A DNA stretch of 28,783 bases from a virus: positions 1 to 28,783 of IMG/VR virus record IMGVR_UViG_3300037189_002649; one strand, written 5' to 3'. This document shows, one piece after another, positions 2,643 to 25,185 of the stretch. The stretch's first letter is position 1. Every line of letters begins with the position of its first letter. The notes under the pieces were generated by a model. That model did no database searches. It was not told where the DNA came from and saw nothing but the letters and a program-made list of their open reading frames with translations. Both the position numbers and the translations under genes were made by a program.

Positions 2643-4073
2643 TTAGTAACTTGATATAGAATATACCGAGCCAACGCTCCATAGTTCTTTTAATCCTCCG
2701 GGATCTGTAACAGAATCAGTGGACATTGTCACAGTTGCAAACCTACCTTTAATGCCTGTCATTTGGGATCCATAAATAACTTCTCCATCTGTAGCTACGC
2801 TATTATTTGTTAAGTTTGCATAATATTTGTTTTCTTTTCTATTGAAACCATAATGATAAGTTACGCCTCCATCGATATATATACCACCTATATAACTTGG
2901 AACTAAAGCAGTTGTATCTGATGTAGAAATCCATGAACCGGGGGTGCTTCCAGCATCGGCACCTTGTGGATCTGATACAAAACTATTAACTTGCCACCCA
3001 TTATCTCCTTCGTAATTTATCGTTTTAAAGTTTTTAGATACAGCAGGATTTTCGTTTAATACAAATGTTATAGACGATGGTGCAGCAACCCCATAGAATG
3101 ACCCAACCGGCACGTTATTACTATAGTGCTGCCATAATCTTCCATTATTCATGGAATATACTTTATTTCTTATGCTAAACAATTGTGATGGTTTAAATGT
3201 AAAAAAGCCAGTAAAGCCATTAACCGTTTCATCGAAATTTGTAGTAGCATAATATTGGTTTGGATTATTTATACCCGTTTGTAAAGATAATACATATTGT
3301 TTATTATATATATCCCAACCTCCTATAATATTACCTGAGCCAAAATTAGCAATAGGAGAACTTATAGCATTAAATGAATCCCTAAAAAAGTCTGACATAC
3401 CATTTTCAGATATTTCCGTTAATCCGTCTTGAGATAATCTAAGAACCGCATTTCTGAATCTATCAGTAAAATATTTTCTATAGCCATAGACTGCAAAGCT
3501 CTGAGGATCTTGGCTAATCCCATAGTTTCCAGCATAAGCCTGTATATCACCAATAACAGCATTAGATGAAGTTACTGTACCTCCTCCTTCAGCTGAATAT
3601 ATTGCGTCTTTATCAATTAATGCTCTACTTACTTTGTCTTCTTGGAATATAATTAAGTTAGTATCTTCAGCATATAACTTTTGTATAGATCCATTTGATG
3701 GATTTAAACTTTTAGTTATTTCTTCTCCTACTGAAAATTGATTTGTATTATTTGTACCTGTTCTAGAATTATATACCCCAGAATATATTAAAGAACTTGA
3801 TCTAATAGAAGCACCGTTATCGTCTTCAACTAAATATGCTTTTACTCCAAAATCAACAGTAGTATTATTATAACCACCTTGTATCCTAGCTTCTTCAATA
3901 TACCATTCTCTGTCGTTTGGATTTGCTATTAAATCCGGTGTTGGATAACCTCCTATTTCTTCCGGTATTCCAAAAGATCCCCCATATACAGGTTCAAAAT
4001 CTGTAAGATCTTCGGTTAATACTTTTTTTAATATAAAAGCATTAAAATATTTTACTTCTATTGATGCTGCCAT
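2643..4073 (-). CDS. Tail-hub/stabilisation-type virion protein, second component
   Basis: The protein has 476 residues, is rich in Tyr, Asn, Ser and Gly, and is beta-strand-like throughout with no membrane segment. Its central part (about residues 100-230) has motifs such as YNSRTGTNNTNQFSVGEEIT, LYAEDTNLIIFQEDKVSRAL and YGYRKYFTDRFRNAVLRLS. I associate these with the C-terminal half of the large stabilisation or muzzle-type proteins of Bacteroidota podoviruses. The gene follows the 1154-residue hub gene after a 72-base gap holding a hairpin. It may therefore be the second half of a protein that is single-chain in relatives, or a separate subunit of the same ring. It has no obvious enzymatic motif. 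A virion tail role is likely; the exact place is inferred. Confidence 0.65.
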   Translation of the reverse strand: MAASIEVKYFNAFILKKVLTEDLTDFEPVYGGSFGIPEEIGGYPTPDLIANPNDREWYIEEARIQGGYNNTTVDFGVKAYLVEDDNGASIRSSSLIYSGVYNSRTGTNNTNQFSVGEEITKSLNPSNGSIQKLYAEDTNLIIFQEDKVSRALIDKDAIYSAEGGGTVTSSNAVIGDIQAYAGNYGISQDPQSFAVYGYRKYFTDRFRNAVLRLSQDGLTEISENGMSDFFRDSFNAISSPIANFGSGNIIGGWDIYNKQYVLSLQTGINNPNQYYATTNFDETVNGFTGFFTFKPSQLFSIRNKVYSMNNGRLWQHYSNNVPVGSFYGVAAPSSITFVLNENPAVSKNFKTINYEGDNGWQVNSFVSDPQGADAGSTPGSWISTSDTTALVPSYIGGIYIDGGVTYHYGFNRKENKYYANLTNNSVATDGEVIYGSQMTGIKGRFATVTMSTDSVTDPGGLKELWSVGSVYSISSY

Positions 4074-4145: not shown

Positions 4146-7100
4146 TTATACACTTTCTAAATACATTCCGCCTTCTCCGCCTCCTGTACTAAGATAATCT
4201 ACTCTAATTTCAAATGTCCAAGATCCTGGTCCTACCAAATCATGATATGCTACAGATAACCCTCCTCCGGTTCCGTCGTATGCGGCTTTTAATAATACCG
4301 GTGTTAAAGTATATATGTCAACCGATGTTTCTACTGTATTTGGACCCCAATAAAATGGAAACGCTCCAGCTCTAACTCTAGCAGTAAATCCTGCTTCAAC
4401 AGTAATTAACCCCTCAGCTCCAAATGATCCGGAAGGTTCTGAGCCTGTAGAAACAATCCCTGGACCACCTCTACCTTCAAATACTTCCCAGGTTATTCCA
4501 TATAAAGCAGAAAATCTAATACTTATATTAACTGTGTCTGATAATCCCCCTGCATCAGTTAGTTTTATGGTCATATCATATATACCTTCTGGTACATTAC
4601 CACTAGGCTGTGTTAATTCCCCTGTTACTGGATCTATGTAAAATGCACTGCTGAAATCGTTTGGCTCTATAGACCACGTTAAGTCCAATTGATTTTGACT
4701 TGGATCAGCCGTACCATTATTGCCATAAAATTGATAAATAAATGTTTGCCCCAAAGGATAATACTCTGGAGATGAAGGTGCAACTGTTATTGTTGGAGCT
4801 ACATTACTCAATGATCCAGACTTGTCAAATAAACTTACTATTGGTTCATTTGGAAGGTTTGGAGTAGTTACAGTTATATAAAATGTATATGAATCTAAAT
4901 CATCTGAGTTAAAACCATAATAAAAATAACTATTAGTTACTAAATCAAAAGTATTGGCATCAACACCTATTTGAATACTAAATCTGCTTGTAACATCAGT
5001 TCCTAATTCATTAAGCACTTGCATGGTTATATTGCCAATAGGGACAGACATAGGCACTCCTAATACATCTGCGAAATAAAAACCATCAACCGCTTTATGC
5101 CCTATTTGAGCAGACTCCGGTAAATTAAATGACCAGCCGCCTAAAGAGTATGGGGCATCGGTATCTTCTATAATTGCCTCATTAAGTTCGCTTATTATTC
5201 CTGAAGTAGCCGTCTCCCAATATAAATCTAATCTTGAATCAACTGGTTCTGTTTCCATTACAGCTAATCTTGCTAACGGTAAAAAGCCAGATGTAACAGG
5301 ATCTGGTAACCCATCTGTATTTCTACCTATTCTAGTTACTGTTGATAATCTTGCAATAAGTGGATTAGAGATATTTTGATAAAATTGATAATATTCTGGT
5401 ATTACTGGCGTGGCTGTTGGTGAGGAGGCCGGAAATAAAGAATTTAATGTGGCTATTGTATTTACAAAAGCAAAAGTATTTCCTGGATAAAATTGTTGGT
5501 TTAAAAAATTCTCTTGCCCTACTGTATCTATGTATAAATTATTAACCCTTGAATATAGTTTTACACTACTTCTATATTGTTCTTGGGTATTACTAACATC
5601 GGCTAGGTCCCTTGGGACCTTATTTATATTATCTCCAATAAGTACAAAATGTGATGTTTTGTCAAGTTCTTTATTATATTCTACTGGATATGCAGCCATT
5701 ACTCCTGGCAAATATACATTATAATAGTCTTGTTCATTTTGTTTAACTACTATTTTATATGAATACCAACCTAATGGATTATAGTCAGCACTATTAGCAT
5801 CCCCATTGTATATACCAGGCCAATCTGTAATACCATTTCCTGATATTACTTCATTAAATAAAACCTTTAATGAATAACCTGGCCATTGGTTTATTATTTG
5901 ACCATTTTCGGGTATATTACTGCCTGGGGATTGTTCTTCAATATATGGTACATATAAAGAAGCCGCTCCATACTCTACACTACCAGAAGTTGAAGGCAAT
6001 ACGGCATTAGATAATATAGTTCCAGACTGTCTTCCAAATTTATCTGACAATATAACTCCAACCTCGTAATTTCTATTTTGTTTTACCGTATGATTTGGAT
6101 ATTCTATTATACTAGTATAATTTTTATCAATATTAAACGTAGCCTTATTATTGCAAACAACATTATAGTTTAAAAATTTAGGGTATCCCTGCTTATCTTG
6201 ATAATTGCTATAAACAATTCTATTACTAACTACTTCTTGTCCAAGTGCTTTTACAGGTGTTTTGTCATATACTCTAATTAAATCTCTTTCAGGTAAAGTT
6301 CTAAAAGGTTTTTTAGATTGATAATTATATACGTATATATCAGATGATCCTGATTGTGCAGCAATCTGTGATACAGGTATAATATCAACAACCTGTACGG
6401 CTAATCCATCAGATTCTTTATATAATATATCTAATTCAGATATTTTACATACAGATTCTAACATATTTCCAGGACATGGTAACTTTATTTGCAAATATAT
6501 ATCATTTGCTTTATTATACATAAAAGAAACTATTGTACTTCGGAATGCTGCTGTTTCATTATCAACTATTGGCTCACTAGTTATATCAACTGGCGGCTCA
6601 TATAAAAAGTAACCATCTTGTTTAGGTATAAATGCTATTTGTGTGAATGGGGCAAATATAGAATATTCATTATCATCAAACCTAAATCTATAACTAAATC
6701 TAACAAATTTGTTTTCTAAATATGTTGGATCTCCTATAAAGTCCGGATTATAATATGGATTTGCGTTAAACTTTACTTCTTGATTATCTGCTAATGTTAT
6801 ATTTTCAGATACTTCTACAGTAAAAGTTATAGAATCATAATCTGTAACTCTAACATTATTTGGTATGCCTGTACCTGAAACTAATTGTCCAATTTGTGGT
6901 GTAAATCCCGTGCCTGGATCATCTATTACAAAAGTATTAGTAGTTGTAATTGCTCCATTAACAATAGCGGTTGACCCATAAGGGGGTAAAAACTCGCTAG
7001 ACACATCATACATTGTTGTTTCATATTCACCAGGAGCTTCTGTGCTTTCAGTATATAATTCAGGAGCATATACTGGACTAAGTTTAGCTACAGATATTTG

Positions 7101-7610
7101 ATCCTCAATCGTATAATAGGTGCTTGAACTTAAAGCATTATTTACATTTATTTTTCTTGGTTGATTTCTATTATCAGTCCAAAACAATAAATCCTCTAAA
7201 AGATTTACACCTATGATAGGAGAAGTTTTAGAAAAATTTAAGAAAGCACCCTCTACTAGTTTAACATAAGTATTCTGTAATACATTATATACGTATATAT
7301 AATTATTTGCTAATGGTGAATAATATGGAGGGGTAGATGGTGATGTATAATTAGTTAAAAATAAAAATACTCTATTATTAGATGTATCAACAAAATAACC
7401 AATACAATCTAAATTTGTTGCGCCTGTTAAAGCATTAAAGTCTATAACGAGTTCATTACCTAATATTGTTTGTAAGGCACCAACATCTGAATTTTCAGAT
7501 TTACTTATTTGTAAATTTATTGCATTACGATATTCATTTTCGGCAATTAACCGATCATCAACATCTTTATTCATTTTAGCACCTGTAAAATTATTTGTAG
7601 TTTCTGCCAT
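4146..7610 (-). CDS. Large tail hub / stabilisation ('muzzle'-type) protein with C-terminal Ig/cadherin-like domain
   Basis: This 1154-residue protein is the longest in the window. Its N-terminus (FTGAKMNKDVDDRLIAENEY, then NAINLQISKSENSDVGALQ) matches the pattern of P22 gp10-like and crAss-like stabilisation/muzzle proteins. These bind the neck distally and close the DNA channel. Repeated short beta motifs (for example NNRVFLFLTNY and NNYIYVYNVLQNTYVKLV) suggest a beta-propeller. Residues of about 215-285 look like an inserted beta module. Near residues 935-1035 lies a cadherin/Ig-like domain: APTITVAPSSPEYYPLGQ, FYIDPVTGELTQP and GIYDMTIKLTDAGGLSDTV. The last 120 residues are Gly-rich and beta-like. 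The gene starts six bases after the 411-residue neck gene. The Ig-like tip could touch the cell surface. The family is inferred from motifs and gene order. Confidence 0.7.
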   Translation of the reverse strand: MAETTNNFTGAKMNKDVDDRLIAENEYRNAINLQISKSENSDVGALQTILGNELVIDFNALTGATNLDCIGYFVDTSNNRVFLFLTNYTSPSTPPYYSPLANNYIYVYNVLQNTYVKLVEGAFLNFSKTSPIIGVNLLEDLLFWTDNRNQPRKINVNNALSSSTYYTIEDQISVAKLSPVYAPELYTESTEAPGEYETTMYDVSSEFLPPYGSTAIVNGAITTTNTFVIDDPGTGFTPQIGQLVSGTGIPNNVRVTDYDSITFTVEVSENITLADNQEVKFNANPYYNPDFIGDPTYLENKFVRFSYRFRFDDNEYSIFAPFTQIAFIPKQDGYFLYEPPVDITSEPIVDNETAAFRSTIVSFMYNKANDIYLQIKLPCPGNMLESVCKISELDILYKESDGLAVQVVDIIPVSQIAAQSGSSDIYVYNYQSKKPFRTLPERDLIRVYDKTPVKALGQEVVSNRIVYSNYQDKQGYPKFLNYNVVCNNKATFNIDKNYTSIIEYPNHTVKQNRNYEVGVILSDKFGRQSGTILSNAVLPSTSGSVEYGAASLYVPYIEEQSPGSNIPENGQIINQWPGYSLKVLFNEVISGNGITDWPGIYNGDANSADYNPLGWYSYKIVVKQNEQDYYNVYLPGVMAAYPVEYNKELDKTSHFVLIGDNINKVPRDLADVSNTQEQYRSSVKLYSRVNNLYIDTVGQENFLNQQFYPGNTFAFVNTIATLNSLFPASSPTATPVIPEYYQFYQNISNPLIARLSTVTRIGRNTDGLPDPVTSGFLPLARLAVMETEPVDSRLDLYWETATSGIISELNEAIIEDTDAPYSLGGWSFNLPESAQIGHKAVDGFYFADVLGVPMSVPIGNITMQVLNELGTDVTSRFSIQIGVDANTFDLVTNSYFYYGFNSDDLDSYTFYITVTTPNLPNEPIVSLFDKSGSLSNVAPTITVAPSSPEYYPLGQTFIYQFYGNNGTADPSQNQLDLTWSIEPNDFSSAFYIDPVTGELTQPSGNVPEGIYDMTIKLTDAGGLSDTVNISIRFSALYGITWEVFEGRGGPGIVSTGSEPSGSFGAEGLITVEAGFTARVRAGAFPFYWGPNTVETSVDIYTLTPVLLKAAYDGTGGGLSVAYHDLVGPGSWTFEIRVDYLSTGGGEGGMYLESV

Positions 7611-15633: not shown

Positions 15634-17853
15634 TTATATTATTTTTGAAGTATTGCCACTATTGTTGTATTTCTTAAAGTTTAATGGTACGGTTTGTTTT
15701 TGTACCTCATAAATAGGTGTGTACATGTGTTTATTACATGCCATTATTGCTAAACCTGAACTAATAGAAGCATCATGCTTTGTCCTATTATTAATATCAA
15801 ATCTTGCCCAATCATTTAAAGTACGTTGGAAATACATTGATCCAAAATTATCTCCTTGTATACCAACATGGTTTTCAATATATGTTTCTATTGCAGCCGC
15901 ATGAGCTTGTATAATATCTTGACCTGAGTTTGGTATACCCCCAATTTCTTTTTCTGTTGGTGATAACTTACTCCAAACTTTATCTGGGCGATTCATTGAA
16001 AATCCTCTATAACCTCTTCTTTTAAAGTAGTATAATAACCTAGCTTTGTTATTCTCTGCCAATATAGGCATACCATAAAACACGCAAGCCATTAATACTT
16101 CTTCAAAAAATATTTCTGCGGTTTGAGGTCTAGCTATATACTCAAGGAAAAAGTGATTAACAGGGATATTTTCCATTGAGAATTTTGTAAGCCCGTGTAA
16201 TGCTCCATTAGATCCTCTTGAATCTACAGTTCCTGAAATATCATAACTATCACAACCAAACGCACCACAATGTTCATTACCCGGATATTTCATCCCATCT
16301 TTTATTATTACGCGGTTTTGCAAGTATTTATCGGGAACCCAACTAATAAGGAATCTACCATCAGGATTTGGATAAAACATTACCTTAGAATCTTGTATAC
16401 CATTTTCCCATTGAAAACTACCTCTAGTCAATACACTAGAATTTCTTAAGTCATCATTATAATCAATCTGTTCATATATCTTAGTAAGATTGAATAATGC
16501 TTGTTTAGCTTCATCTCTAAAAGCATGCTGTTCTGTTCTTGGAAACTGTCTATAGTATTCATTTAAAGCATCAGAGTCTGATTTTAAACCTTCAACCTCA
16601 TTTTGCCAGTGTTCTATAACGCCTGCATCAATCCATTTACCATCAACGCCTTTTATTGGTTTTTCCGGAGTATCGAAGACAGGTAAGCCATGAGAATCAA
16701 TGAATCCCTCGTACGACCATTCCATAGGTATGAACAAACTATATAATCCTGAAGAAGTCTGTCCATTGCGGTTTCTTTTTGTAACATCTGAATTGTAATA
16801 AAGTTTTTTAAAATTTTCTCCTCCTTTATCTAAAGCATTTGATGTTGAACCCATCATACACTTACCAATAATTTTAGATCCTAATCTAAGACACGTTTTA
16901 GTTACACGCCAGTTGTTTAATATATTATCTGGTTTTTCCCATTTACCACTTTCGTCATGAGCTAAAAGTTTTAACTTTTCCCCGTCATAACTATTGTCTC
17001 CGGTATTTTTCCAGTCAATTGTTGTATCTAATCCATCAAGTTCCTCAAGCTTTTCGTTTGCATCTAATTTCTTACGTGTAAGTTTTGATGCAGGTATTCT
17101 ATAAGCTAATTCTGTTTTAGGCCTATCCATACCATCTTGGATAGGTTTAAAAAAGAAAGGATAGTTTATTGATATAGGTACAACTTTATCTGTAAACATT
17201 TTTTTAGCATCCGCTCCTGATTTTGATAAGATACCAAAACGAGCATCACTAGATATTGTTGCTTGATTAACTAATTCTGCTGACGACATAAATGAAAATC
17301 CGGAACGTCTATTTTTTAAATAGCACATTCCATAACATCTATCATCGGCTTTACAAGCTTCCCAAAATATAAAGAAAAGTCTGTTAGACTCTCTAAAATC
17401 TGGAGCGCCAACGTCTATCTTGCTCCATTGCAAGTACATATAATGTGTACCTGTTATATATGTTGGTTTGCCATTATTATAAAAAGCAAAACCCTCTTCT
17501 CTATACTTAAATTCTTGATCGATGTAATCATACCAGCGTTCTTTAAAAGCATCTGGATATTTATTCCAATCAAATACATTTTTAATTCTAGATAATTCTT
17601 TAGGAAATTCAGCTTGTTCCCAGTATTGTTCTTCTTTTTTATCTGAACGTTTATAAGCACCCTCTATTAAAGGAAGGGCTATTTTGAGATTTTGAATTTC
17701 ATATATTTCGCCAATTTTACCGGTATGACTAATAACAACCATATCATGGTCTTTATTATATCCATATTCCCATTTACTATGGCGATTTTTTTGTTTTATA
17801 ATATTAGGCTTGACATGATCTTCAAGTACCCTATATAAAGTTTGTTCGTACAT
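15634..17853 (-). CDS. terL: Terminase large subunit
   Basis: The 739-residue protein is the ATP-driven DNA packaging motor with a headful or end-cutting nuclease. The ATPase half has a deviant Walker A at about residues 181-188 (NRRSGFSF), Walker B at 296-301 (LLAHDE, with catalytic Glu301) and a coupling motif GSTSN at 335-339. The nuclease half has GAFGCDSYDISG (Asp535 as first metal ligand) and ILAENNK around Glu600, with later acidic residues completing the RNase H-like centre. An Arg-rich loop (RRGYRGFSMNRPDKVW) follows. The size is typical of crAss-like large terminases. The start overlaps the upstream candidate small subunit stop by one base. The portal gene follows after three bases. 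Confidence 0.9.
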   Translation of the reverse strand: MYEQTLYRVLEDHVKPNIIKQKNRHSKWEYGYNKDHDMVVISHTGKIGEIYEIQNLKIALPLIEGAYKRSDKKEEQYWEQAEFPKELSRIKNVFDWNKYPDAFKERWYDYIDQEFKYREEGFAFYNNGKPTYITGTHYMYLQWSKIDVGAPDFRESNRLFFIFWEACKADDRCYGMCYLKNRRSGFSFMSSAELVNQATISSDARFGILSKSGADAKKMFTDKVVPISINYPFFFKPIQDGMDRPKTELAYRIPASKLTRKKLDANEKLEELDGLDTTIDWKNTGDNSYDGEKLKLLAHDESGKWEKPDNILNNWRVTKTCLRLGSKIIGKCMMGSTSNALDKGGENFKKLYYNSDVTKRNRNGQTSSGLYSLFIPMEWSYEGFIDSHGLPVFDTPEKPIKGVDGKWIDAGVIEHWQNEVEGLKSDSDALNEYYRQFPRTEQHAFRDEAKQALFNLTKIYEQIDYNDDLRNSSVLTRGSFQWENGIQDSKVMFYPNPDGRFLISWVPDKYLQNRVIIKDGMKYPGNEHCGAFGCDSYDISGTVDSRGSNGALHGLTKFSMENIPVNHFFLEYIARPQTAEIFFEEVLMACVFYGMPILAENNKARLLYYFKRRGYRGFSMNRPDKVWSKLSPTEKEIGGIPNSGQDIIQAHAAAIETYIENHVGIQGDNFGSMYFQRTLNDWARFDINNRTKHDASISSGLAIMACNKHMYTPIYEVQKQTVPLNFKKYNNSGNTSKII

Positions 17854-18125
17854 TATTTAGATCTCCCTTCTGCAAATCCTTTAAATACTTTTGTATCTGT
17901 TTGCTTTTCAGAATCCTCTAACATTTTTTCTTCTTCTTGTATTCTATTTAGAATTTCAAGAGCATCAAAAATAGCTAATTTTTTTGTAGCCGCTGCATTC
18001 TTCAATCTATCAGCAGAAATATCATCCCCACTATCAACAATTTTTTCCTCAGCAACTTTTATTAATTCCTCAACTGCTTTTTGCCCAGCTCGGATTATAT
18101 TCAGCTTCGTCTCCTTTATATTCAT
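17853..18125 (-). CDS. Candidate terminase small subunit
   Basis: The protein has 90 residues, is helical and charged, and contains SADRLKNAAATKKLAIFDAL followed by EILNRIQEEEKMLEDSEKQT. It ends one base into the large terminase start. Small terminases are short helical DNA-recognition proteins encoded just upstream, and the KNAAATKKLAIFDA segment is one I associate with such genes in marine Bacteroidota phages. There is no visible helix-turn-helix in the first 30 residues. The start at 18125 overlaps the preceding gene by 56 bases, which is more than usual here; a later in-frame start would shorten the protein but none is evident. Function is inferred from position. Confidence 0.6.
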   Translation of the reverse strand: MNIKETKLNIIRAGQKAVEELIKVAEEKIVDSGDDISADRLKNAAATKKLAIFDALEILNRIQEEEKMLEDSEKQTDTKVFKGFAEGRSK

Positions 18126-18681
18126 ATTTAATTACAATATCATTAGATTTCATACAATACAATCGCTGGTCATCTATTATAAACTCAAATTCGCCATAAG
18201 GTTTATAGCCTACAACGTCACCAGGAGTGATTCCGAGCCCATTTAAGGACTCATTACCATATTTTAGTATTCCAATATGCTTTTGCTCTTTGGATAGCTT
18301 AAATTGGTCTTTATTTTTTATTGGCTTTACAAAGCAACGGTCACCATTTGACTTCCAATCACCATTACTTTTATATAAATAGATCTGATCAGGCGAACAA
18401 AAATATAGATCTTCTTGGAAATATGATCTACTATTCTTTTGTTTCCCTTTAATATCATAGAATCGTCTAAATACATTATGATGTATTACAATAATATCTC
18501 CAACTTTTATATCTGTTTCGCCAAATAATGGTACTGCAACCACTTCGGCTAATTTATTTACTGATTTAAAGCTTTCAATTCTTGTGTTTGTGATAAGTTT
18601 TTTACCATCAACATCAATACTATTGTTGTATCTAGATCCTACCGGTTTAATTATAAAATCAAATACAGCTGTCATATTCAT
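18070..18681 (-). CDS. GroES-like (chaperonin-10 fold) protein, large form
   Basis: The protein has 203 residues, about twice the length of GroES. Two stretches look like the GroES barrel core. The first is at about residues 45-70 (AEVVAVPLFGETDIKVGDII, then VIHHNVF), comparable to the EVLAVG...VKVGDIVIF strand pair. The second is at about residues 150-185 (GITPGDVVGYKPYGEFEFII, then DDQRLYCMKSNDIVIKY). The middle (75-130) includes RRFYDIKGKQKNSRSYFQED and lacks a clear mobile loop with an Ile-Val-Leu tip. It starts with a one-base overlap of the previous stop, which supports the first ATG. It lies beside the packaging genes, far from the true groS. It may be a dedicated cochaperonin or a structural derivative of that fold. 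Confidence 0.6.
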   Translation of the reverse strand: MNMTAVFDFIIKPVGSRYNNSIDVDGKKLITNTRIESFKSVNKLAEVVAVPLFGETDIKVGDIIVIHHNVFRRFYDIKGKQKNSRSYFQEDLYFCSPDQIYLYKSNGDWKSNGDRCFVKPIKNKDQFKLSKEQKHIGILKYGNESLNGLGITPGDVVGYKPYGEFEFIIDDQRLYCMKSNDIVIKYEYKGDEAEYNPSWAKSS

Positions 18682-18908
18682 TAGTACTCTAAATCGTATT
18701 CAACAGATATTGCCATATTGCAATTAAACTTTTTCCAAGGCATTACCTCTTCATCCTTCTTGATATATATATTATAAGAATTATCAGACTTGTCTAATAT
18801 TATATAAGAAATGCGATGCCCTCCGTAAACCTCTTGGCCTACGGAGTAATGCATTGCATCGTCTTTATAATTAGTTCCTATACTTATTTTTCTAACTTTA
18901 GAATCCAT
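18681..18908 (-). CDS. Small conserved hypothetical protein
   Basis: The protein has 75 residues and reads mainly as beta strands: KVRKISIGTNYKDDAMHYSV, VGQEVYGGHRISYIILDKSD and NSYNIYIKKDEEVMPWKKFN. There is no signal peptide, membrane segment or enzyme motif. The GQEVYGG turn followed by strands resembles small beta-barrel accessory proteins, but I cannot name a family. It overlaps both neighbours by one base, so it is translationally coupled to the GroES-like gene that follows. A role in the packaging/head operon is inferred from context only. Confidence 0.6.
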   Translation of the reverse strand: MDSKVRKISIGTNYKDDAMHYSVGQEVYGGHRISYIILDKSDNSYNIYIKKDEEVMPWKKFNCNMAISVEYDLEY

Positions 18909-19266: not shown

Positions 19267-19299
19267 AAATACCTACTATGATAAAGTAAGTAGGTATTT
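19267..19299 (-). terminator. 11-bp hairpin at the 5' side of the tRNA
   Basis: AAATACCTACT and AGTAGGTATTT form a perfect 11-bp stem around an 11-base loop. It overlaps the last codons and stop of the Dps-like gene and ends four bases before the tRNA's first base. On the minus strand it is followed by only a few bases without a U-tract. A role as a terminator, an mRNA 3' end stabiliser or a guide for tRNA 5' processing is possible. Confidence 0.5.
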
Positions 19300-19638
19300 A
19301 GTTTTTGCGGCTTCACCAGAAAGTGATTGTGCCATATTTGAAACATCTAAATAACTATTAGCATCAGCAAAATCCATAAGATCTTTTGCAAATGTTAATA
19401 CCTCATCTGTAATTGTCATTGAATCAGCATTTGGTTTTATAGCATCAATTTTCATACCCTTTACCCTTTTACCGGTATAACCCATAAGTTTTTCAATAAC
19501 GTCGTCCTTGAAATCTTGTATAAATTCATAGAACGCTCCTGTAGCTTTATGTTCTGCAAAACTTCTAGTTTCCCAATGGATCATGTGGATTTGCTCATGA
19601 AAATAAGCTAACTTTCCTGCAATTTCTTCAAGTGTCAT
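19276..19638 (-). CDS. Dps/ferritin-like helical protein (DUF5856-type)
   Basis: The protein has 120 residues and is almost wholly helical. Residues 9-50 (KLAYFHEQIHMIHWETRSFA, EHKATGAFYEFIQDFKDDVI, EKL) have the His/Glu/Asp spacing of Dps and ferritin-like proteins. In those, HW-T-S---H-A---F / D-I forms the first two helices of a four-helix bundle. I associate the pattern with the phage family DUF5856. His14, His18, His21, Asp42 and Glu49 are candidate metal contacts, but I cannot show an iron centre. The C-terminal half (65-120) is two further helices. The C-terminal codons overlap a hairpin. It may protect DNA or act as a virion or host-modifying protein; its function is not established. 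Confidence 0.6.
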   Translation of the reverse strand: MTLEEIAGKLAYFHEQIHMIHWETRSFAEHKATGAFYEFIQDFKDDVIEKLMGYTGKRVKGMKIDAIKPNADSMTITDEVLTFAKDLMDFADANSYLDVSNMAQSLSGEAAKTKYLLTLS

Positions 19639-22025: not shown

Positions 22026-22316
22026 TTAATAGGTTGGTTTTTCCATTGTAGAAGCATCAATAACAGTATTCATGGTTCTATCATAACTTCCATCTGAAGG
22101 CATGCCAAACATACCAGTCATATTAGCTTGTTCTTTTGGATTAAAATTAACAGGCGCACCGCTAGGTTTTATTCCAGGGTTATACATTGTTCTTGGCGTA
22201 GAAACCATTGGAGGTGCTGGTGAGATATCTCCTGTTAACCCAAGAGTTGTGGTATCTCCTGAAGGCATAGTATTAGGATTATATTTTTGTCCACCTAAAG
22301 CATTGTTGTATTTCAT
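22026..22316 (-). CDS. Small Pro/Gly/Thr-rich hypothetical protein
   Basis: The protein has 96 residues with a low-complexity, probably extended composition: MKYNNALGGQKYNPNTMPSG, TTTLGLTGDISPAPPMVSTP and NPKEQANMTGMFGMPSDGSY. There is no hydrophobic core, signal or catalytic pattern. It overlaps the upstream gene by four bases, so it is translationally coupled. It may be a minor virion or scaffolding-type protein, but nothing in the sequence shows this. Confidence 0.5.
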   Translation of the reverse strand: MKYNNALGGQKYNPNTMPSGDTTTLGLTGDISPAPPMVSTPRTMYNPGIKPSGAPVNFNPKEQANMTGMFGMPSDGSYDRTMNTVIDASTMEKPTY

Positions 22317-22759
22317 CTTGTTTTATCTTTATTTACATTATTTATTGCTGATCGTAATACTATATCTGTATAAGTATTATTTTTCATTATTTTATTACTT
22401 CTAGGAGTTGTTGGTATATCTTCTGATCCTAACATTATACGGTACATTCGACTTATCAGTTGTTTGCACTTGAATGAAACTTTATATATATTATATTTCT
22501 GGGTTGTGTGATTTCTATTTCTCCACACTACTATCCATCCTTCTTTTAATAAATTGTTCCAGCGCTTATTGTCCCAACTATATGCGTAAGTACCTATCTT
22601 ATAATCTTGCTTGGTAAAAAATTCCATGCAATCAAAATATACCAATAATTCTAAATCAGCATCCGTAAGTCCATAATTTCTACAAGCCCATTTGCGTATT
22701 AATCTATAATGTTTTAATAAGCCAAGATCTTTTATATCTTTTGCTTCTAACTTTCTCAT
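22313..22759 (-). CDS. Winged-helix-like DNA-binding protein (putative)
   Basis: The protein has 148 residues. Residues of about 15-85 contain a helical block (LLKHYRLIRKWACRNYGLTD, then ADLELLVYFDCMEFFTKQDY) followed by WDNKRWNNLLKEGWIVVWRN and QKYNIYKVSFKCKQLI, which have the helix-helix-wing order of MarR-like DNA-binding proteins. Arg, Lys and Trp are common. It overlaps groS by four bases and the following gene by four, so it belongs to the chaperonin-linked transcript. It could be a transcription regulator or, alternatively, a DNA-recognition protein for packaging. I give the fold with moderate and the role with low confidence. Confidence 0.5.
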   Translation of the reverse strand: MRKLEAKDIKDLGLLKHYRLIRKWACRNYGLTDADLELLVYFDCMEFFTKQDYKIGTYAYSWDNKRWNNLLKEGWIVVWRNRNHTTQKYNIYKVSFKCKQLISRMYRIMLGSEDIPTTPRSNKIMKNNTYTDIVLRSAINNVNKDKTR

Positions 22760-23016
22760 AAAACTATTACAACATCCTGTAATCTTATAACCTGATAATC
22801 CTGACCATCAAATTCTATTCCGTGCCCAGCTGCTTTATCATAATAAATTACATCAGCTTGTTTTAGGCATTTAATATCATCACTTACAGAAACAACAATT
22901 GCTTCTTTGTAACGTATATTCTCTTTATCTTTTTCTTTTAAAAGTAAACCACTTTCCGTTTTTGATACACCCATTTTTTTTGGAAGTATCACTATATTAT
23001 TACCTATTGCCTTCAT
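22756..23016 (-). CDS. groS: GroES co-chaperonin
   Basis: The 86-residue protein matches GroES along its length. The N-terminal strand is KAIGNNIVILPKK. Residues of about 15-32 form a mobile loop (GVSKTESGLLLKEKDKEN) with the hydrophobic triplet LLL at the place of E. coli Ile-Val-Leu. It ends with YYDKAAGHGIEFDGQDYQVI followed by RLQDVVIVL. It would cap GroEL and help fold phage virion proteins. Its start overlaps the end of groL by 17 bases, so it is translated after groL. This is unusual because bacteria place groS first. It is slightly shorter than the usual 95-100 residues, mainly in the central loops. Confidence 0.85.
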   Translation of the reverse strand: MKAIGNNIVILPKKMGVSKTESGLLLKEKDKENIRYKEAIVVSVSDDIKCLKQADVIYYDKAAGHGIEFDGQDYQVIRLQDVVIVL

Positions 23017-24562
23017 TAACTCTTAAATTATTAATTACACAATCAGTTGATAATATTGTAACAGCTACGGATGCTGCATTCTTTAATGCGCTTTTGGTAA
23101 CAGATAATGGGTCTATAATACCTGCTTCAATCATATTAACTGGCTTTCCTGTTACAGCATTCAATCCGCGGCCTTCTAGGCGATCCCAACTACTTTCTGG
23201 TTGATCAATACCAGCATTACTTAATATTGTCTTAAATGGAGCCTTAATAGCTTTTAAAAGAGCAATACCGCCTTTGTTTGTTGTTGTAATGCTTCTTGAA
23301 GCATCTAATAAAGCAATTCCACCTCCAGGAACAATACCTTCTTTAATCGCGGCTTTAGTTGCACAAATTGCGTCTTCAACCCTATCTGCTTTTTCTTTTA
23401 ATTCTAAATCAGATCCAGCACCTACTTTTACAACAGCAACTTTTGCTGATAATCTAGCTAATCTTTTTTCTAATCTAATTACATCCCCAGGATTAGTTGC
23501 TTCTGCTAATTGCGAGTTTAATTCATCAATTAATTCTTGAACTTCTTCCTTAGTATCCCCTACATGCAGTATTGTTTCAGAATCATCCGTTATTGCTTTT
23601 AAGCAACTACCTAAACAACTAATGTCTATAAGATCCATATCGTCGCCTAAATCCTCATTTATAATGGTAGCTCCTGTTAACAGAGCTAAATCAGTTAATG
23701 TATCTTTTTTATTTATTCCATAAGTTGGAGCATTGATAACATTTACTTTTATATTTCCTTTAACCTTATTCATTGCTAAAGCAGACAAAACAGTTTGTTC
23801 CATATCTGCTATGATTAATAAAGGTTTATTATTTTTAATTACATATTCTAAAACCGATTGTATTTGGCGTATAGATTCAACTGGTGATTCAACAATCAAT
23901 ACTAATGGGTTTTCTAATTCTGCAATTCTTTTATTTGGGTTTGTAATAAAGTTTGAATTTACCAATCCTTTATCATATTGTACACCATCTATAATTTCTA
24001 TTTCTGTTTCTGGGTTTGCTGATGATTCCATCATAACAATACCAGTTTCACCAACCGCTCTAAAAGCATCTCCAATAATTTTACCAAGGACTGGATCGTT
24101 ATTGGTTGATATAGTAGCAATATGATCTATCATATCACCGGCTACTGGAACTTTAATAGATTCTAAATATTCTATAACTTTTTCTACCGTAGATTCAATA
24201 CCATTTTTTAATTCTCTTGAATTTACTTCGTTTTGAATTGCATAAGCTTCTTCTAAAATAGCATGTGCTAATACCGTTGCAGTTGTTGTACCATCTCCAG
24301 CTTCTTTAACTGTTTTTCTAGCTGCTTCTTTTAAAAGTCTTGCTCCCATATTTTCTACAGGGTCTAATAATGTAATACTATCTGCAACTGTAACTCCATC
24401 TTTTGTAATTAACGGTCTACCTTTGCTATCTTCTAACATTACACATTTTCCACCGGCTCCTAATGTTGAACTAACTGCTTTTGTTAATTTAGTTATACCG
24501 GCAAATACATTATCTCGTGCTTCGTTACCAAAGCTGAGATTCTTTACTATTTCATCTGACAT
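23000..24562 (-). CDS. groL: GroEL chaperonin
   Basis: The 520-residue protein aligns end to end with GroEL (usually about 540-550). ATP-site motifs are intact: TKDGVTVA at 53-60 (Asp55, E. coli Asp52), GDGTTT at 89-94 (Asp90, E. coli Asp87), VEDA at 395-398 (Asp397, E. coli Asp398), GGG at 413-415, Asn468-Ala469 and Asp484. The usual LGPKG nucleotide loop is LGAGG at 34-38, with Pro to Ala and Lys to Gly. The apical domain (about 190-375) is complete. The C-terminus ends RVNEGNR without the Gly-Gly-Met tail. It probably folds capsid or fibre proteins with the downstream GroES. The ATG at 24562 has an A/T-rich leader with no Shine-Dalgarno. Confidence 0.92.
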   Translation of the reverse strand: MSDEIVKNLSFGNEARDNVFAGITKLTKAVSSTLGAGGKCVMLEDSKGRPLITKDGVTVADSITLLDPVENMGARLLKEAARKTVKEAGDGTTTATVLAHAILEEAYAIQNEVNSRELKNGIESTVEKVIEYLESIKVPVAGDMIDHIATISTNNDPVLGKIIGDAFRAVGETGIVMMESSANPETEIEIIDGVQYDKGLVNSNFITNPNKRIAELENPLVLIVESPVESIRQIQSVLEYVIKNNKPLLIIADMEQTVLSALAMNKVKGNIKVNVINAPTYGINKKDTLTDLALLTGATIINEDLGDDMDLIDISCLGSCLKAITDDSETILHVGDTKEEVQELIDELNSQLAEATNPGDVIRLEKRLARLSAKVAVVKVGAGSDLELKEKADRVEDAICATKAAIKEGIVPGGGIALLDASRSITTTNKGGIALLKAIKAPFKTILSNAGIDQPESSWDRLEGRGLNAVTGKPVNMIEAGIIDPLSVTKSALKNAASVAVTILSTDCVINNLRVNEGNR

Positions 24563-24756: not shown

Positions 24757-25185
24757 TTATATATTTTTTAATTGGAAGTGCATACCATCTTTTCTTTTCC
24801 ATGTTCCTCCCCAATCAAATCCAGCATCTGTGAAACACTTTACTAATTCGGGAGACATAGTAGGGTCTTTATCTAATCCATTCCATGAAGCATTAATATC
24901 TATTGCAATCCCCCAAGAATGTAATGATAAAGATTTTAATCCACGTTTTCTACGTACATTAAAACACCCGTCCCAAGTTTTTAATTCCTTGATTAAATCT
25001 CTTTCAATTATATTTGTAAAAGCAACTATTAATGGATTTATTATTGCTTTGTTACAATATAACTTTTTTGGTATTACCCCAAGTTCTAAATGAACTGGTA
25101 CATCCCATACGGTCATATATTTTAATTCGTTCTCAACTAAAGTAGGATTACCCCACTTCTTTAAACATTGTGCACTTGTTACCAT
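24757..25185 (-). CDS. Endolysin, M15-type L-alanyl-D-glutamate peptidase
   Basis: The protein has 142 residues. The catalytic centre of peptidase M15 (VanY/L-Ala-D-Glu peptidase) is visible as SLHSWGIAIDIN (His89, six residues, Asp96), DGMHFQL (His136) and a preceding CFNVRRKR (Arg78/79) that would bind substrate. FTDAGFDWGGTWKRKDGMHF is the usual C-terminal region. There is no signal peptide, so it needs a holin. It cuts the peptide cross-bridges of peptidoglycan late in infection. It lies two bases after an envelope protein gene and after a holin-like gene, forming a lysis cassette. The length is typical of short single-domain enzymes of this type. Confidence 0.88.
   Translation of the reverse strand: MVTSAQCLKKWGNPTLVENELKYMTVWDVPVHLELGVIPKKLYCNKAIINPLIVAFTNIIERDLIKELKTWDGCFNVRRKRGLKSLSLHSWGIAIDINASWNGLDKDPTMSPELVKCFTDAGFDWGGTWKRKDGMHFQLKNI

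Follow-up and report, generated by a model that had tools for sequence, protein, structure and literature searches.

The viral record IMGVR_UViG_3300037189_002649 (28,783 bases, classed as linear in IMG/VR), which was analysed as a whole and is referred to below as the window, carries three chaperonin-type genes, all on the minus strand. The groL gene (23000..24562, minus strand) encodes a phage GroEL (Cpn60) of 520 amino acids (aa), and groS (22756..23016, minus strand), which follows it, encodes a single-domain GroES (Cpn10) of 86 aa. The two genes overlap by 17 bases (23000..23016, minus strand), with the ATG of groS lying within groL in a different frame. This pair, as located in a first-pass annotation of the sequence, was confirmed, both open reading frames (ORFs) being on the minus strand and their products containing Pfam Cpn60 and Cpn10 domains above the cut-offs. 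The third gene (18070..18681, minus strand), absent from that annotation, encodes a 203-aa protein predicted to consist of two Cpn10-type domains in tandem, like the chloroplast co-chaperonin Cpn20. These genes most likely represent an old, selected, phage-private chaperonin with two candidate lid proteins.

The GroEL of the window matched PF00118 with an E value of 2.8e-62 (211.5 bits against a cut-off of 34.3) over profile positions 1-487 of 490, and the closest PDB sequence was a bacterial GroEL, 8wuw, aligned with query residues 7-510. The score was above the cut-offs of the GroEL subfamily models NF009487 and NF000592 and below that of the NCBIfam equivalog TIGR02348 (466.1 vs 582.1 bits); such partial agreement with the stricter models fits diverged members of the family. 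Functional positions were compared using lists which we take to represent the 20 nucleotide-site/catalytic positions and the nine apical lid/client positions, and residue counts refer to 78 GroEL sequences of the window family, with identical proteins counted once and locus L081, where GroEL is distributed over two ORFs, excluded. The window GroEL was identical to that of E. coli at 19 of the 20 nucleotide-site positions, the remaining one being P33 replaced by A, so that the earlier statement of an intact ATP site held. Within the family, 19 of these positions are invariant in 78/78 sequences, with A always in place of P33, whereas N479 is kept in 70 sequences and replaced by D in 8. The apical site is changed at six of nine positions in all 78 sequences (Y199 to L or I, S201 to N, Y203 to H or N, L234 to Q, V263 to A, V264 to M), with F204 and L237 kept and L259 represented by L, I or V. 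In 50 bacterial rows, Y199, S201, Y203 and V263 were kept in all 50, L234 in 44, and V264 in 43. Among the named phages MW202828, elemoF, Panino and phi38:1, Y199 was kept and Y203 changed in all four, and V263 was kept in phi38:1. The GGM tail is absent from the window-family GroEL, and its inter-ring positions are divergent in an unsurely aligned region. The altered apical residues indicate a variant interface and are no argument against descent from Cpn60; judging from the sequences, we read this as an apparently intact ATPase with a putative private lid/client surface. Two GroEL frames in the collection were broken, one interrupted by a stop codon (L138, record G006) and the other being the split GroEL of L081, which could reflect decay or sequencing error.

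The window GroES was detected by PF00166 with E 7.3e-10, scoring 39.2 bits where the cut-off is 21.1; none of the 14 NCBIfam GroES models listed reached its cut-off (top score, 35.3 bits), and the predicted model of the protein matched many GroES/Cpn10 chains (top E 1.7e-6). The mobile loop with a hydrophobic triplet noted earlier was found at residues L24-L25-L26 (LLL); T20, G23 and L26 are invariant in 70/70 family rows, and residue 24 is L or I. The predicted local distance difference test (pLDDT) value was below 50 at residues 16-20 and 23-25, as expected for a mobile loop. Pairwise omega values between the window and nine relatives were 0.06-0.14 (groL), 0.03-0.13 (groS) and 0.11-0.16 (tandem gene); this range of 0.03-0.16 in 27 comparisons places the chaperonin-type genes beyond chance, and all three are under purifying selection. 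The “working folding machine” of the first-pass annotation can be upheld in part: the pair is genuine, complete and selected, but its apical lid/client site is unlike the bacterial one.

The order of the two genes was followed in related genomes. A scan of IMG/VR with the window GroEL gave at least 593 GroEL-encoding stretches, 80 of which, encoding proteins 70-95% identical to that of the window, were kept and combined with the window and three named phages (MW202828, Flavobacterium phage elemoF and Maribacter phage Panino) into 84 loci; L001, a repeat of the window, was excluded. These loci are related: clustering of the 78 GroEL rows gave 52 clusters at a 95% identity threshold and 18 at 80%. 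The groS gene was located downstream of groL on the same strand in 84/84 loci, and the same order was found in eight elemo-like contigs, as judged from coordinates. Overlap of the two genes was observed in 83/84 loci, the sole exception being Panino with a gap of 121 bases; its length, calculated with the earliest start codon (ATG, GTG or TTG) in each ORF and possibly overstated if the true start is later, was 17 bases in 48 loci, 20 in 10, 23 in 14, 26 in 1, 44 in 1, 4 in 5 and 1 in 4. Of 80 bacterial loci, 72 had groS before groL and eight had no groES within the fetched flank, so the reversed order occurred in 0/72 scorable loci. Thus, groL invariably precedes groS in this phage group, as opposed to bacteria. 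A universally reversed order in phage groE loci was rejected: groS precedes groL in immuto, phi38:1 has groS, one ORF and then groL, and in Calle_2 a small Cpn10 gene lies upstream of the GroEL gene. In the Vibrio phages 2.275 and phiKT1024 no annotated groES adjoined the GroEL gene; the latter phage (L164, 3001-4581) has its GroEL gene between the tail sheath and tail tube genes.

The rarity ascribed to phage GroEL genes holds among isolates, where GroEL matches were obtained in 282 of 50,697 phage records (some of the 282 being bacterial-looking entries filed as phage), but not in IMG/VR, given the number of stretches found there. The exceptional status of a phage GroEL-GroES pair had been overstated: related public records annotate both genes, and homologues of both were mentioned for some phages in 2020 (PMC7185714). 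GroEL was reported in 2017 in 36 of 78 environmental genomes of the phi38:1/IAS-virus group (PMC5332604), “chaperonin cpn10” was listed among the Pervagoviridae core proteins in 2021 (PMC8776804), and the Panino paper gives both GroEL and GroES homologues (PMC11590407).

The GroEL tree contained 72 rows, including 16 of this phage group (12 of the 78 window-family GroELs together with MW202828, elemoF, Panino and phi38:1), 50 bacterial rows taken from the 80 loci, and six other phage rows. All 16 phage-group rows formed one side of a branch with a Shimodaira-Hasegawa-like approximate likelihood ratio test (SH-aLRT) value of 98, apart from the bacterial and other phage rows. Five phage rows, four of them in this group, were on long end branches, for which the tree program warned of long-branch joining, so the details of the tree are unsure. 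Among the matches listed, the closest bacterial GroEL was 42% identical to that of the window, and the GC content of the groL-groS region was like that of the rest of the window. Forced grouping of the phage rows with the Bacteroidota rows was not rejected by the approximately unbiased test (p-AU 0.377; L202_bact, 302 aa, excluded). The tree and this test together suggest that the GroEL gene is old in these phages, with an old Bacteroidota donor still compatible. Of the two origins offered earlier for the gene order, separate capture or long evolution in phages, the identity value and the branch support make long phage evolution a better fit than recent capture from a host.

The 203-aa product of the third gene matched phrog_13932 (“co-chaperonin GroES”) with E 2.3e-23. 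This profile is not specific to tandem proteins, as it also matched 9 genomes out of 14 bacterial and archaeal controls (PF00166 matched 11/14); presence was therefore scored when a match spanned almost all of the 200 profile positions, and the elemoF gene was accepted on profile positions 1-145 together with its public annotation. The AlphaFold model of the protein (40 sequences) had a pLDDT of 80.9 and a predicted template modelling score (pTM) of 0.75. Its top fold match was the Chlamydomonas-type chloroplast Cpn20 7ekq_R (Foldseek E 5.4e-6, template modelling score 0.52), to which VIA-align aligned 161 residues over model positions 1-187 with Z 10.4 and a root-mean-square deviation of 3.9, the next rows having Z of at most 8.6. 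The N and C halves of the model each matched single GroES/Cpn10 chains with Z of about 8. From this predicted structure, the protein would comprise two Cpn10-fold domains in one chain. Its N-domain loop has a hydrophobic stretch at residues 29-31 (mostly L, I/V and V/L/T) followed by N32 and E36, invariant in 70 rows. Pfam Cpn10 matched 35 of 40 tandem family members at E up to 1 (best, 1.8e-4), and four Cellulophaga-phage tandem proteins were above its cut-off in the C half. In the public records of several phages, the tandem gene is annotated as GroES or cpn10.

The tandem gene was located in 76/84 loci; five of the eight remaining contigs end 1.8-3.1 kb downstream of groL, and three (L061, L063 and L076) carry the gene elsewhere in the record. 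In 76/76 loci it is followed by the terminase gene on the same strand, mostly about 200 bases away (a small ORF lies there in the window), and directly preceded by an ORF of the 75-aa type. Co-occurrence was scored in 35 large records, namely 25 IMG/VR loci with long contigs (17 found by GroEL and 8 by the tandem protein) and 10 named phages, behind which stand few independent lineages. GroEL was found in 30 of them; 34 had the tandem protein, each together with a single-domain Cpn10, and Gundel_1 lacked all three. The two lid genes in large records thus accompany each other more strictly than they accompany GroEL. Both lids without GroEL were also present in record G026 (72.8 kb), where the tandem protein shares 47% identity with its phi38:1 counterpart. 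In a second set of 12 records, GroEL was found in 8 and a separate single Cpn10 in 10.

Several characterized or annotated systems resemble this arrangement. Elemovirus phages (elemoF 6-3D, NC_055853) likewise have groL before groS and a tandem “co-chaperonin GroES” directly before the terminase, but in elemoF the groE pair and the packaging genes are on opposite strands, and the GroEL is 38% identical to that of the window. The uncultured podovirus MW202828 (Manatee Spring) and Maribacter phage Panino (PP540027) also share groL before groS and the tandem gene before the terminase, differing in that the tandem gene is annotated “hypothetical” in MW202828, and in Panino the 121 bases separate the pair and groS is annotated “hypothetical”. 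An IMG/VR scan for relatives of Panino’s tandem protein found none. The Cellulophaga phages phi38:1/Calle_2 (Pervagoviridae) and those of the phi18:3 type (Pachyviridae) have single and tandem Cpn10-type genes like the window, with another gene between groS and the downstream groL in phi38:1 and with GroEL absent from the four phi18:3-type records. To our knowledge, phage T4 has no GroEL. Its gp31 is likewise a phage-made co-chaperonin of Cpn10 fold (1g31 aligned with the tandem N domain with Z 7.0), but it is single-domain and works with the host GroEL (PMC6318259). Phage EL gp146 and the OBP protein are also phage-encoded GroEL-type chaperonins, which differ in that they are described as working without a co-chaperonin (PMC5934643); for the EL chaperonin, no interaction with E. 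coli GroES was reported (PMC7185714).

The chloroplast system likewise combines a Cpn60 chamber with single-domain Cpn10 and tandem-domain Cpn20 co-chaperonins, and the predicted tandem fold matches Cpn20. In chloroplasts, Cpn20 joins with Cpn10 in seven-domain rings of mixed composition (PMC5780408, PMC3542282), and the service of a seven-fold chamber by a double-domain co-chaperonin is a stated dilemma for chloroplasts (PMC5780408). Cpn20 was until recently known from chloroplasts of algae and plants alone, and then from the malaria parasite (PMC3542282). In contrast to this system, the phage one is phage-encoded, and its tandem profile gave no sequence match with Cpn20; the profile of the single GroES did match a Cpn20 sequence (E 3.6e-12). 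The phage tandem protein is probably a domain fusion independent of plastid Cpn20.

Taken as a whole, our preferred explanation, to which we would assign a probability of roughly 55%, is a private Group I chaperonin system for the folding of phage proteins, with GroES as the cap and the tandem protein as a second co-chaperonin. The phage GroEL would form an ATP-driven chamber, capped by the single-domain GroES from the overlapping gene, and the 17-base overlap may make translation of GroES depend on that of GroEL. The tandem protein, encoded in the terminase/portal cassette, could supply extra lid domains while virion proteins are made, acting as a lid alone or mixed with the single GroES, as in chloroplasts. 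The clients would be phage proteins poorly handled by the host chaperonin, most likely abundant virion proteins. Late synthesis, capsid or fibre clients and coupled translation, as proposed in the first-pass annotation, are readings of gene position. Where a relative has no GroEL of its own, both lids would work with that of the host, like T4 gp31.

A more specific version is put forward only tentatively: these flavobacterial phages may have independently evolved a plastid-like two-lid chaperonin, in which a mixed lid of seven domains (e.g. one single and three tandem proteins) caps the phage GroEL or, if there is none, that of the host to build virions. If true, this would place a Cpn20-type co-chaperonin outside plastids, with the same solution to the seven-fold mismatch. 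Having the same set of parts as chloroplasts, small genomes and hosts in culture (Cellulophaga, Flavobacterium, Maribacter), the phage group would be an independent test case for the chloroplast dilemma, and because two lids are present in relatives both with and without a phage GroEL, it can be tested directly whether they serve the phage or the host chamber. Moreover, the pairing of an apparently intact ATPase with apical changes throughout the family provides a natural experiment in lid/client specificity.

The main rival explanation, which we consider rather unlikely, keeps GroEL and the single GroES as partners and regards the tandem protein as a packaging or head-assembly factor, or as capping some other machine, its Cpn10 fold being borrowed. 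A number of observations weigh on its side and against the tandem protein as a lid. The tandem gene goes with the terminase gene and not with groL, and the small terminase subunit is often encoded just before the large one. Four Pachyviridae (phi18:3, phi19:3, phi13:2 and phi46:3) have both lid-type genes without phage GroEL; their single-lid matches are weak (E 5e-4 to 8e-4), and three of the four records depend on these, that of phi18:3 being backed by Pfam (E 5.7e-11) and by public annotation. In records G027 and G035 (17.8 and 30.1 kb), which may be fragments, the tandem gene occurs without a separate single lid. The Cpn10 signal in the sequence is weak: Pfam Cpn10 gave 16.3 bits against 21.1 for the window protein (E 0.0098) and in the C half alone, a Pfam search of the Panino, elemoF and MW202828 proteins gave zero Cpn10 matches, and a PDB profile search with the tandem alignment gave 8 matches (top E 0.21) with no Cpn10/Cpn20 or other co-chaperonin among them. 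A duplication visible in the sequence was looked for and rejected, the halves not being similar by blastp and hhalign. Additionally, the C-domain loop is short in the window family, the best structural match, 7ekq, is titled as a ClpP complex with Cpn20 named as a subunit and is not a Cpn60 complex, and GroES-like dehydrogenase domains appear lower in the same VIA-align list (Z up to 5.2), so the fold alone is no proof of lid function. At the same time, the fold match spans both Cpn20 domains, each of the 34 records (out of 35) with a tandem gene also has a single-domain Cpn10, and the four Cellulophaga proteins pass the Pfam cut-off, all of which argue for a lid. Also against a packaging factor, the phi18:3 record, which labels the portal and other structural proteins as seen by tandem mass spectrometry, labels neither Cpn10 protein so, although small proteins can escape this method.

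It is quite improbable, in our opinion, that the phage GroEL is lid-independent or single-ring like the chaperonins of EL and OBP, described as needing no co-chaperonin (PMC5934643), and that the GroES-type genes serve the host GroEL. The altered apical residues, lost GGM tail and divergent inter-ring positions (within the limits of the alignment there) would agree with such a protein; however, the overlap of groS with groL in 83/84 loci and the kept mobile loop are as expected if GroES and GroEL act together. A groE operon recently captured from a host and then rearranged, or a chimera of assembly, can practically be dismissed: descent of the phage GroEL clade from an old Bacteroidota source was not rejected, but the 42% top bacterial identity among the matches listed, the separate phage branch and the window-like GC content contradict a recent event, and the same order in 84 loci, including many contigs and three named phage genomes, makes a chimera untenable.

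As to novelty, phage GroEL has been known in this group since 2017 and both genes are annotated publicly; what sets the system apart is the predicted two-domain build of the tandem lid-type protein together with the altered apical residues. Literature on phage chaperonins, on flavobacterial, crAss-like and Cellulophaga phages and on Cpn20 yielded no description of a tandem phage Cpn10 or of the groL-groS order, which is weak evidence of absence, subscription journals being mostly outside the coverage. The main text of PMC7077304, on Baltic Flavobacterium phages, contains no mention of chaperon, groel, groes, cpn10 or elemo.

All long ORFs of the window are on the minus strand. In reading order they are a 484-aa ORF weakly matching tail proteins, an M15 peptidase of endolysin type (24757..25185, minus strand; PF13539, E 3.8e-16) upstream of groL, groL, groS, small ORFs, the 75-aa ORF, the 203-aa protein, the large terminase (15634..17853, minus strand; phrog_6681, E 1.5e-171), the portal and other head genes. 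The start of a 148-aa ORF (22313..22759, minus strand; phrog_17028 of unknown function, E 2.1e-8) overlaps the groS stop, and this ORF is perhaps on the same transcript as groS. The 75-aa ORF (18681..18908, minus strand), immediately upstream of the tandem gene and with an RKI(S/T) start, matched no Pfam family above its cut-off; an alignment of 6 members was made. A DUF5856 protein (19276..19638, minus strand; PF19174, E 1.3e-14) also matched phrog_858, “starvation-inducible transcriptional regulator”. The window’s terminase recurs in 87 records, which belong to Bacteroidota phages or their uncultured kin, and the virus probably infects flavobacteria. The crAss-type “muzzle” protein of the window is split into two ORFs, with the N part (PF25731) at 4146-7610 and the C part (PF25729) at 2643-4073, both on the minus strand and both matched above the cut-off. 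The same split was observed in 7/7 IMG/VR relatives tested and in Panino, with the N part at the contig edge in relative G001; the parts are fused in one ORF in phi38:1, elemoF and Gundel_1, and the C part alone was detected in MW202828 and phi18:3.

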